Below, piece by piece: positions 4,627-23,781 of a stretch of 64,000 bases of DNA; the stretch's first letter is position 1, and each line of letters opens with the position of its first letter. The notes beneath the pieces are model-generated. The model searched no databases. It had not been told where the DNA came from and saw only the letters and a program-made list of their open reading frames with translations. This DNA comes from Georgenia muralis. Lineage in GTDB: Bacteria; Actinomycetota; Actinomycetes; Actinomycetales; Actinomycetaceae. Made by a program: the position numbers and the translations under genes. The stretch covers positions 1,240,001 through 1,304,000 of the forward strand of contig NZ_RKRA01000001.1 of NCBI RefSeq assembly GCF_003814705.1, given 5' to 3'.

Positions 4627-4824
4627 ATGAGCAACCGCCTCGCGGGCGCGACCAGCCCCTACCTGCTCCAGCACAAGGACAACCCCGTCCACTGGCAGGA
4701 GTGGGGGGACGCCGCCTTCGCCGAGGCCCGCGAGCGCGGGGTGCCGATCCTGCTCTCGGTCGGCTACGCCGCCTGCCACTGGTGCCACGAGGTTGAGCCT
4801 TCAACAGCCGTTGGTGGCATCTGA
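4627..4824 (+). pseudogene. 5' remnant of the host DUF255 thioredoxin-domain gene, cut by element integration
   Basis: Sixty-five codons starting [20 protein letters not shown] and running to the active-site motif ACHWCH, after which the frame reads into element DNA ([11 protein letters not shown]) and stops. It matches the first 53 residues of the full-length gene at 21763 but differs at many positions (for example PVHWQEW against PVDWWEW). This is the original chromosomal 5' end, still with its own upstream region. The rest of the gene now lies 17 kb away at the right end of the element. The short product would keep an intact CxxC-like motif but only half a thioredoxin fold, so it is probably non-functional. 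Confidence 0.9.
4765..4789 (+). repeat. attL core (25 bp)
   Basis: Identical to 21901-21925. The core encodes Y-A-A-C-H-W-C-H, the conserved active-site stretch of the DUF255 protein. Counting eight more matched bases beyond one mismatch, similarity extends over 34 bp (4756-4789 against 21892-21925). Confidence 0.88.
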
Positions 4825-4908
4825 CGAAAGCGCAGGTCAGGTCGGGTGCGACGGGCCGCCCCGGTTCAGCCAAGACTGCCCTGGGACACCGATTCCGGAA
4901 CTTCGTGT

Positions 4909-4928
4909 ATCACTCTCGTGCATCACTC
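4909..4928 (+). repeat. Left arm repeat inside the element end
   Basis: The 20-mer atcactctcgtgcatcactc is exactly repeated at 21701-21720, just inside the other end of the element. It contains two direct ATCACTC heptamers 13 bp apart. Position and structure suit integrase arm-type or excisionase binding sites. The rest of 4825-5060 shows no gene. Confidence 0.65.
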
Positions 4929-5062
4929 GGGCACCTCTGCGCTCGTAGTGGCGCCGGGCTGGACCTGGGCTGGACCCTCACGAGTCTTCTCGACAATGGC
5001 CGAGTTCCGTGCGTCGCGGAAGACGGGTGTTTTCGGGAAGTTCCGCGGCTACACATGCGACC

Positions 5063-5100
5063 TGTGTTGCATATCTGCAACACACTCCTAGACTAGTCTC
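5063..5100 (+). promoter_or_regulatory. Leaderless, self-regulated promoter of the toxin-antitoxin operon
   Basis: A perfect inverted repeat TGTGTTGCA-tatc-TGCAACACA (5063-5084) overlaps a -35 element TTGCAT (5067-5072). The -10 TAGACT (5089-5094) follows after 16 bp and lies within a second palindrome AGACTAGTCT (5090-5099). The ATG is at 5101, seven bases after the -10, so the transcript is predicted to be leaderless. The antitoxin's N-terminal HTH is the obvious repressor. Confidence 0.75.
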
Positions 5101-21636: not shown

Positions 21637-21700
21637 GAGACCGCCTCCCTAGGCTGGTGGCTCCGGGTCACCGAGAGACCCCGCTGCACATCCATAATGC

Positions 21701-21720
21701 ATCACTCTCGTGCATCACTC
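21701..21720 (+). repeat. Right arm repeat inside the element end
   Basis: Exact copy of 4909-4928 (atcactctcgtgcatcactc). It is located between the integrase start and the right core, 180 bp from attR, against 119 bp from attL on the other side. Confidence 0.65.
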
Positions 21721-21762
21721 AACAGATTCTGATGCACGTGCCACTGGTAAGGAGTCAGAGGA

Positions 21763-23781
21763 ATGGCCAACCGTCTCGCCACCGCGACCAGTCCGTACCT
21801 GCTCCAACACGCTGCAAATCCGGTGGATTGGTGGGAGTGGGGACCCGAGGCGTTCGTCGAGGCGAAGCGCCGTGATGCACCAATCCTCCTGTCGGTCGGG
21901 TACGCCGCCTGCCACTGGTGCCACGTCATGGCGCACGAGTCCTTCGAGGACACCACCGTGGCCGCGGCCGTCAACGCCTCCTTCGTCGCGGTCAAGGTCG
22001 ACCGTGAGGAGCGCCCCGACGTCGACGCCGTCTACATGGCCGCCACGACCGCGCTGACCGGCCACGGCGGGTGGCCCATGACGTGCTTCCTCACCCCGGA
22101 CGGCGAGCCCTTCTACTGCGGCACCTACTACCCGCGCCAGACCTTCCTGCAGCTCCTCGACGCCATCTCCCGCGCCTGGACGCAGCGGCGCGAGGAGGTG
22201 GTCGAGGCCGGCGGGCGGATCGTCGCGGCGCTGGCCGAGGTCGGGAGCACGGGCCGGCCCGTCCCGCTGGACGCCGCCGCCCTCGACGCTGCCGCCGCCC
22301 GGCTGGAGGAGAGCTTCGACCGCACCAACGGGGGGTTCGGCCGGGCCCCGAAGTTCCCACCGTCGATGGTCCTGGAGTTCCTCCTGCGCCACCACGCCCG
22401 CACCGGCGACGCCCGCTCGCGGCGCATGGTCGACGTCACCGCCGACGCCATGGCACGCGGCGGCATGTACGACCAGCTCGCCGGGGGCTTCGCCCGGTAC
22501 AGCGTGGACGCCTCGTGGGTGGTCCCGCACTTCGAGAAGATGCTCTACGACAACGCCCAGCTGCTGCGCCTCTACCTCCGCCTCCACCGGGCCACCGGCT
22601 CGTCCCTGGCCGAACGGGTCGTGCACGAGACGGCCGAGTTCCTCCTGCGTGACCTGCGCACCGTCGAGGGCGGGTTCGCCTCCTCCCTCGACGCCGACGC
22701 CGCCGGCTACGAGGGCCTCACCTACGCCTGGACGCCCGCCGAGCTGGGGGCGGTCCTCGGCCCGGACGACGGCGCCCGTGCCGCCGACCTGCTGGCCGTC
22801 ACCGAGACGGGAACGTTCGAGAAGGGCACGTCGACCCTGCAGCTGCGCCGCGACCCCGCCGACCCGCGGTGGTGGGCCGAGGTCCGCGGCCGTCTCCTGC
22901 GTGCCCGCGCCGACCGGCCGCAGCCGGCCCGCGACGACAAGGTCGTCACGGCCTGGAACGGTCTCGCCGTCGCCGCCCTCGCGGAGGCCGGGGCGCTCCT
23001 CGGCGAGCCGGGCTGGGTGGCCGCCGCGCGCACCTGCGCCGAGCTGGTCGTGGACCGGCACGTCGTCGACGGCCGGCTGCGTCGCGCGTCCCGGGACGGC
23101 GTCGTGGGCACAGCCGCCGCCGTCGCCGCCGACCACGGCGACCTCGCCGAGGGCCTCCTCGCCCTGCACCAGGCCACCGGCGAGGTGCGGTGGCTCGAGG
23201 ACGCGGGCCGGGTCCTGGACGTCGCGCTCGACCACTTCGCCGCCGACGGGGGCGGTTTCTACGACGTCGCCGACGACGCCGAGCGCCTGCTCTCCCGGCC
23301 GCGCGACCTCGCGGACAACGCCGAGCCGGCCGGCACCTCGGCGCTGGGTGGTGCGCTCCTCACGTACGCGGCGCTGACCGGCTCGGCCCGGCACCGTGAG
23401 GCCGCCGAGGGGGCCGTCGCAGCGGCCGGGACGCTGGCGGCGGCGGAGCCACGGTTCGCGGGCTGGACCCTGGCCATCGCCGAGGCGGCGCTCGCCGGTC
23501 CGCTGCAGGTAGCCGTCGTCGGCGACGACGCCGCAGCCGCCGAGATGGTCGCTGCCGCCCGGGCGAGCAGCTCTCCCGGCCTCGTCATCGCCTTCGGGGC
23601 GCCCGACCTCGCGGGCGCCCCACTGCTCGCCGACCGGCCGCTGCTGCGCGGCGCGGCGACGGCCTACGTGTGCCGCGGGTTCCTCTGCGACCTGCCGGTC
23701 ACCGACGTCCCCGCCCTGCGGGCCCGGCTCGACGAGGAACGGTCTGCGCCCCCGGTTGCGGGGGTCGGCCCGACGGTCTAG
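21763..23781 (+). CDS. DUF255 thioredoxin-domain protein (YyaL/SPATA20 family), chimeric 5' end
   Basis: A 672-residue protein. Residues 1-170 form the DUF255 thioredoxin-like domain with [15 protein letters not shown], the family's modified active site. The rest is an (alpha/alpha)6 barrel resembling N-acylglucosamine 2-epimerases ([46 protein letters not shown]). The biochemical role of the family is not established. The first 46 codons and the RBS (AAGGAGTCAGAGG) lie on the element side of the attR core, so the expressed gene is an element-host hybrid that restores a full-length protein. It may be co-transcribed with the STAS gene downstream. Confidence 0.9.
21901..21925 (+). repeat. attR core (25 bp)
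   Basis: Identical to 4765-4789. Sequence left of it belongs to the element (lower GC, different codon choices); sequence right of it returns to host composition. The gene stays in frame across the junction. Confidence 0.88.

Follow-up and report, generated by a model that had tools for sequence, protein, structure and literature searches.

The replacement of a gene's 5' end by an integrating element, with new translation signals, is already known at dusA and prfC. At dusA, as described in the consulted parts of PMC4482086 and PMC8409611, islands and prophages insert into the 5' end of the gene by means of a site-specific integrase (in named strains of Acinetobacter, Pseudomonas and Vibrio); the original 5' end is stranded, a diverged replacement is supplied, and excision rebuilds the gene, as demonstrated by polymerase chain reaction. 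One such element, IMEVchUSA3, brings along a promoter together with a new N-terminus (61% identity over 35 residues), and SXT likewise replaces the 5' end of prfC with a new promoter and N-terminus (the latter as cited in PMC8409611; both from the part consulted). In the islands that target tRNA genes (Islander, TIGER), the element bears the missing part of the target, and the regenerated target and the displaced fragment mark its two ends (PMC4383910, consulted part). The locus described here lies in 64,000 nucleotides of Georgenia muralis (assembly GCF_003814705.1, contig NZ_RKRA01000001.1, positions 1,240,001 to 1,304,000, forward strand); this whole stretch is called the window, and coordinates count from its first letter. 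It very probably holds a 17-kb integrated element, likely mobilisable, whose lambda-type tyrosine integrase would have recombined the attachment site of the element (attP) with the CHWCH codons of a host DUF255 gene, rebuilding that gene as a chimera, with a predicted arm-type site of the integrase lying within the replacement codons.

The attachment cores and the chimeric DUF255 gene

Two exact copies of a 25-bp repeat, at 4765-4789 and 21901-21925 (both + strand), bound the 17.1-kb element; as the original prediction had it, they encode YAACHWCH (plus one base), and if one mismatch is allowed the repeat extends 9 bp further upstream. They are read as the cores of the left (attL) and right (attR) junctions and include the CHWCH motif of the DUF255 gene, presumably the active site of this thioredoxin. 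The two frames that carry them give the only PF03190 (DUF255) matches in the whole 4.14-Mb chromosome. At the left, a frame opening with ATG at 4627 comprises the original 5' end of the host gene (4627-4788, + strand; PF03190, 88 bits) and then a read-through of 11 codons into the element (4789-4824, + strand), ending in a stop at 4822-4824; the stranding and the stop had thus been foreseen correctly, the host portion being 54 codons long instead of 53. The read-through is similar in the related elements of G006 and G007 (here and below, G numbers denote genomes and L numbers loci). At the right, an AAGGAG resembling a ribosome-binding site (21749-21754, + strand; AGGAGTCA in 21 of 34 attR arms) precedes an ATG at 21763, from which a replacement coding segment of exactly 46 codons, where about 46 had been predicted, leads up to the core (21763-21900, + strand; identified from sequence, open reading frame and comparison of 5' ends). 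The frame continues through the core into the host's own 3' part (21926-23781, + strand; 78-94% nucleotide identity to congeners), completing a chimeric gene of 672 residues (PF03190, 233 bits). Upstream of the core, the left and right copies share 67.5% of their nucleotides and 71.4% of their amino acids (42 codons); downstream of it no similarity is seen between them, as judged by eye.

One of the direct repeats thus sits within the full-length target gene and the other at the far end of the element, and joining the two host flanks computationally yields an open frame of 672 residues with 78-93% nucleotide identity to congener genes, two of which are themselves chimeric. A tyrosine recombinase gene (the integrase; 20230-21636, - strand, 468 residues) adjoins the chimeric gene. 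The earlier proposal of a mobile element that uses the active-site codons of a DUF255 gene and leaves a full-length chimera at its right end is borne out by this arrangement, with the integrase, the repeats, the displaced host 5' end, the element-borne 5' end and the open joined frame all present. In the mechanism proposed, the integrase would recombine attP with the CHWCH codons of the host gene (attB), integration would leave the host's own 5' end stranded on the left, and the right half of attP, acting as a working 5' end with its ribosome-binding site and 46 codons, would rebuild the gene; excision would presumably rejoin the host halves.

The two 5' ends differ in origin. Six congeners without a whole element carry single-copy genes, and over 42 codons these share 80-93% of nucleotides with the stranded fragment and 67-75% with the element 5' end. 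To other element 5' ends, the latter is 65-91% identical; the replacement did come from a diverged lineage, as predicted, and this lineage is the element family itself. Element 5' ends have a mean identity of 75.8% to each other against 70.0% to host fragments, and in 22 of 23 pairs their third-position G+C content is below that of the stranded partner (67% versus 89% as set means). The ratio of non-synonymous to synonymous differences (pN/pS, uncorrected for saturation or relatedness) is 0.21 for the 33 element 5' ends compared, 0.38 for 21 stranded fragments and 0.27 for six congener genes, and the element 5' ends are still evolving as protein. The stranded fragments of G085 and G086 (L110, L111) are frameshifted; both genomes were excluded from the host codon counts, and G086 from the element codon counts as well.

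At the core itself, 25 attL/attR pairs show no difference at positions 13, 14, 16-20, 22 and 23, and differ at positions 6, 9 and 12 in 9, 11 and 7 pairs, respectively; since such differences appear only where attB and attP diverge, nothing is claimed beyond the positions that never differ, and a mapping of the crossover from these differences was dropped for the same reason. The quiet stretch corresponds to H-W-C-H within the motif, where codons have the least freedom (TGY CAY TGG TGY CAY). This may explain the choice of target: where an active-site motif is conserved and can be encoded in few ways, its letters would be nearly fixed, much as those of a tRNA gene are.

Recurrence and probable mobility of the element family

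The integrase was sought in four sets: a scan of genome contigs, 196 genomes of the genus Nocardioides (E 1e-30), nine genomes of the window's own genus, and a class sample of 394 genomes (E 1e-40). DUF255 is present on all 31 integrase loci of the contig scan (30 genomes), whose hosts are Nocardioides, Aeromicrobium, Brevibacterium, Cellulosimicrobium and Propionicicella, together with metagenome bins assigned to Frankiales, Frankiaceae, Nocardioidaceae and Propionibacteriaceae. Among the Nocardioides genomes, 24 of 196 carry the integrase, with DUF255 nearby in every one; 15 of these are shared with the contig scan, eight further ones, with G619 as a remnant among them, have DUF255 within the fetched flank, and the last, G610, has an integrase fragment 4.3 kb from DUF255. 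In the window's own genus, three of nine genomes have a full integrase and a fourth, G005, a remnant of about 77 residues, all four beside DUF255. The class sample yielded three integrase carriers (3/394), namely the window's own genome, G171 and G204, the latter two again with the integrase beside DUF255; G204 looks like the contig-scan genome G062 encountered once more. In 44 genomes, therefore, this integrase family is found at the same codons (30 from the contig scan, nine more Nocardioides, four from the window's own genus, and G171), with four counted as remnants (G005, G610 and G619, plus outer copy counts in others), a recurrence that places the pattern beyond chance. As a control of specificity, five weak recombinase matches (L007-L011, 32-38% identity) have no DUF255 on their loci, and the target was DUF255, not dusA, in every strong integrase relative examined. 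The integration site is recurrent across several actinobacterial groups.

A second, N-terminal piece of DUF255 occurs in 27 of the 30 contig-scan genomes (all except G063, G079 and G081) and in three of the nine genomes of the window's own genus, the other six having a single copy. Both copies lie on one contig and strand in 19 genomes, 17 to 61 kb apart in 18 of them and 116 kb apart in G070.

Mobility is suggested by G065 and G066 (Nocardioides sp. Root140 and Soil797), which share one 38-kb element (99.9% identity over 33.1 kb and 99.2% over 5.4 kb) in differing host DNA: the 4-kb left flanks cannot be aligned, the right flanks are 79-81% identical except for a 65-bp stretch at 89%, and the host fragments stranded at the two left junctions differ from each other. 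This is the pattern expected from recent transfer between species. Related elements of 19.6 and 18.9 kb are present in G006 and G007. In G006 (L021), the stranded fragment is of the element type and has an older integrase remnant beside it, so that a second element seems to have targeted the 5' end brought by the first. G005 (L013) has kept an integrase remnant and the leader of the element together with host-like codons near the core, giving a mosaic 5' end. A duplicated 5' end without the integrase, one of the findings that the original prediction named as speaking against it, does occur, in G144 (L191), a 6.4-kb copy with both cores, element-like end sequence, two nearly identical 5' ends and no detectable integrase relative; as element-end sequence of the same kind is present at its left junction, we take it for an element that has decayed or whose copies have been homogenised. 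By these cases, the 5' replacement may become permanent, and there seems to be exchange of sequence between the two copies.

Three further genomes have more than one copy of the parts concerned. G070 (L034, L036, L092) has two integrase copies about 116 kb apart and an inner 5' fragment with an element-type leader and its own integrase, which suggests tandem or serial integration. G080 (L097, L108), with two stranded 5' fragments 5 kb apart and two integrase copies, is likely another accretion. G273 (L192, L193), not among the integrase matches of the class sample, has two long DUF255 copies of different sequence, which are either paralogues or a product of mixed assembly.

Arm-type repeats and the replacement codons

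In the attP of phage lambda, arm-type repeats flank the core on both sides. Here, pairs of the form TGYATCAC-N5-TGYATCAC (13 bp apart) occur at about -203/-190 and +141/+154 from the start of the core in many relatives; in the 4.14-Mb genome of the window, the pair occurs exactly twice, at the two ends of the element. The P' pair, TGTATCAC-N5-TGCATCAC, lies at 4906-4926 (+ strand; +141 and +154), and the P pair, TGCATCAC-N5-TGCATCAC, at 21698-21718 (+ strand; -203 and -190), both in the same positions in relatives; a third P copy, inverted and with one mismatch, lies at 21729-21736 (- strand; -172). At up to one mismatch, the first P copy is found in 30, the second in 35 and the inverted third, near -172, in 29 of 41 attR (the 41 include G065 and G066, which are one element). 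Integrase binding to these repeats would complete the mechanism proposed above, in which arm sites at fixed distances flank the core on both sides, one of them within the replacement segment, 29 bp ahead of the core; this stretch would therefore serve both as coding sequence and as part of attP.

The copy in question lies at 21872-21879 (- strand), reading GTGATGCA on the + strand, in codons R-D-A. The inverted repeat, GTGATRCA, is found at this place (R-D-[A/T]-P) exactly in 25 of the 41 attR and with up to one mismatch in 27. It is exact in only one of 26 stranded fragments (that of G062, which is element-type) and in none of six single-copy congener genes; in the class sample, site and core pattern occur together in two of 394 genomes, both integrase carriers, and the core pattern alone in 159. 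Random synonymous recoding of the window's 46 codons yields the exact site in 0.3% of draws with the codon usage of the element genes and in 2.1% with that of the 5' ends. In a distant clade (53-55% integrase identity), G082 has an arm repeat of its own, TATGTCTA, which, within the final 60 coding bases, finds its best inverted match again at -29 (7/8 letters, against 4 in its own host fragment and at most 5 in 23 hosts), and G084 has a 6/8 match at -30; by the same method, G088 gave no clear match near -29 and G171 no P repeat. Main-clade element 5' ends have Ala or Thr where the stranded host fragments mostly have Val; an extension of this residue-by-site idea to the distant clade was ruled out, as the stranded fragment of G084 has L-D-R-P just like its element 5' end. 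For these counts, five of 31 fragments in which no core could be recognised (G064, G074, G076 and both of G080) were dropped from attL, as were L112-L115; attR was counted without G530, whose core is outside the pattern, and without the remnants G005, G610, G619 and G144, where the exact site was not seen in the sequence examined. G006, G062 and G070 stand outside the host set in the core-difference and pN/pS counts and in the own-arm comparison.

We consider it somewhat more probable than the opposite that the replacement 5' end is dual-coded, carrying a predicted arm site in the codons ahead of the active site, such that attP must be protein-coding and the needs of recombination shape the codons and, in the main clade, a residue. 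As the P arm copies begin 34-65 bp upstream of the start codon of the rebuilt gene, integrase binding could also regulate this gene and the integrase together. The competing explanation, to which we give roughly one chance in a few, is that the element is real and the coding copy at -29 merely reflects shared ancestry of the element 5' ends, which are indeed more closely related to each other than to host fragments; the exact site is also missing from 16 of 41 attR, and the letters of arm and coding copy are not phylogenetically independent. Shared ancestry accounts less well for a full 8/8 agreement with the inverted arm at a constant position, for the rarity of the site among synonymous recodings, and for the return of the position in the distant clade with another arm motif. 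An agreement between arms and embedded site in their A/G letter (21 of 23, Fisher p 1.1e-4) was demoted after a tree test.

Several results weigh against the reconstruction as a whole or against its coding site. The A/G agreement rests on three changes on the tree, with one supported independent pair, and is thus not independent evidence. Of the 16 attR without the exact site, two are one mismatch off, four belong to the distant clade, and the rest include genomes with integrases of whole length (G629, G584), so the site is either dispensable or has since been lost; gene conversion between the copies would fit as the cause in G144 and G005, but not in G072 and G075, whose codons differ from those of their own left fragment. 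In an automatic own-arm comparison over the 36 attR in which the method finds a P repeat, the element match exceeds that of every host 5' end in only 19; among the others, which include the window's own, hosts reach the same score in some cases, partly because the method picks its register blindly. A sigma-70 consensus scan of 21500-21900 returned no match for the promoter that the original prediction ascribed to the element; the 5' end that it supplies may have promoter activity. The chimeric 5' end of G086 (L051) is itself frameshifted and its integrase is split, so that this genome may lack a working DUF255 gene. Finally, the integrase scores 20.5 bits with PF00589, below Pfam's cut-off (nine of the 15 members of integrase alignment A1 match the family), a sequence search of the PDB at E 0.01 returned no relative of it, and its predicted structure is weak (predicted local distance difference test, pLDDT, 66). 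The four best PDB matches of this model are nevertheless chains of lambda integrase (E 2.8e-5, template-modelling score 0.19-0.22), and from these and the strands in the model an N-terminal arm-binding domain may be present. Tyrosine recombinases have an invariant catalytic Arg, Arg and Tyr, plus the usual active-site histidines; in the 15 aligned integrases, R257, R416 and Y450 are invariant, and R413 and D441 occupy, in our reading of the alignment, positions where the histidines are usual. This replacement may explain the weak Pfam score, and the protein would be an atypical lambda-type tyrosine recombinase at most.

An ordinary duplication of DUF255, with paralogous 5' ends, unrelated DNA between them and the integrase as a bystander, would be in keeping with the second full copies in some genomes (G273) and with the homology of fragment and gene over their whole coding overlap; we find it scarcely credible, since it is contradicted already by the recurrence at one codon position and by the element common to G065 and G066, and since in one genome after another the homology breaks off at identical codons next to an integrase of this family, the arm repeats keep constant spacings to the core, and six of nine genomes of the window's own genus have a single DUF255 copy. 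The element could also be a prophage or phage satellite, as tyrosine integrases, XRE regulators and HTH_17 proteins are common to phages and mobilisable elements alike. This is very unlikely, given that a MobF relaxase is present, that a scan of 13 element proteins (E 0.001) matched no structural family of phages, and that neither one viral-contig scan nor 50,697 phage records (E 1e-5) gave a relative of the integrase, for which reason a viral origin was rejected. That the element has by now become an immobile fossil in this strain is also on the unlikely side, if clearly less so: remnants are common, and G005, G619, G610 and G144 retain pieces only, but in the window the integrase frame, both cores, the arm pairs and the relaxase frame are intact, and the related elements in G006 and G007 are of other sizes.

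Gene content and comparison with known systems

The element would probably be integrative and mobilisable, with a MobF/TrwC relaxase-helicase on board (9656-12271, - strand; PF08751, 174 bits; NF041492, 135.7 bits, above cut-off); no transfer apparatus was found among the 13 element open reading frames scanned, and mobilisation would therefore depend on a helper. Next to attL, an XRE-family regulator (5101-5862, + strand; HTH_3, relatives in 5 of 57 loci compared) overlaps the gene of a 282-residue cargo protein (5859-6707, + strand; no Pfam match); both also occur in L050 and are possibly a toxin-antitoxin or defence pair. Further cargo consists of a TauD/TfdA-like protein (6744-7403, + strand; PF02668) and a 302-residue protein (7400-8308, + strand; no Pfam or NCBIfam match). 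A small protein without family match (8359-8637, - strand), with relatives in 8 of 57 loci compared, adjoining the integrase in L047, L049 and L053, is a candidate excisionase, and an HTH_17 DNA-binding protein (8641-9051, - strand; PF12728, 45 bits) a second candidate for this role or a regulator; another XRE-family regulator (8907-9707, + strand; HTH_3) overlaps its neighbors and has an uncertain start. The remainder is a type I restriction cluster, assigned by family and defence-model matches, with HsdR (12453-15803), HsdS (17567-18664) and HsdM (18661-20127), all on the - strand. An AAA ATPase gene within it, between hsdS and hsdR (15813-17570, - strand; PF13175, PF13304), has PADLOC matches to the AriA, NsnB, Old and GajA ATPase models and a 93% identical counterpart in the G006 element.

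With this locus, an integration hotspot in a protein-coding gene is seen to be shared by several actinobacterial groups. It supplies natural before/after comparisons by the dozen, in which a host gene has had its first 46 codons exchanged, including remnants in which the exchange has outlived the element. It also offers, for testing, a case in which one stretch has to encode protein and act in recombination; if the dual coding is true, lost elements can leave such segments behind for good. Integration tools for Nocardioides and relatives might use it as a landing site, too. The original prediction knew of no description of this target, and neither DUF255 nor this thioredoxin gene is named as an attachment site in the titles and abstract openings of the literature searched (supplements and the TIGER database, which lay outside the search, may list it); the main text of PMC12884075 has no occurrence of thioredoxin or DUF255, and one paper among those found, PMC7232551, which by its title concerns toxin-antitoxin systems, does contain the word DUF255.

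Compared with the consulted descriptions of known systems, the tRNA islands have their targets in tRNA and tmRNA genes, whereas here it is the 5' end of a protein gene, with its translation signals. SXT/R391 elements carry full conjugation machinery; they resemble the present element in replacing a 5' end, but do so in another gene, in other hosts and with that machinery. Lambda attP is alike in its arms flanking the core, from which the present site differs in arm motif, in spacing and in the copy within coding sequence, a likeness to be read with the weakness of the integrase model in mind. The dusA elements are alike in their stranded original 5' end and diverged element-borne replacement, but lie in dusA of Acinetobacter, Pseudomonas and Vibrio, whereas those described here lie in DUF255 of Actinobacteria, with the core on the active-site codons; an embedded arm site is not described for them in the consulted parts of PMC4482086 and PMC8409611. 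Three things appear new within the literature searched: that DUF255 serves as a target, that it is widely used in Actinobacteria, and that the coding part of attP contains an arm-type site.

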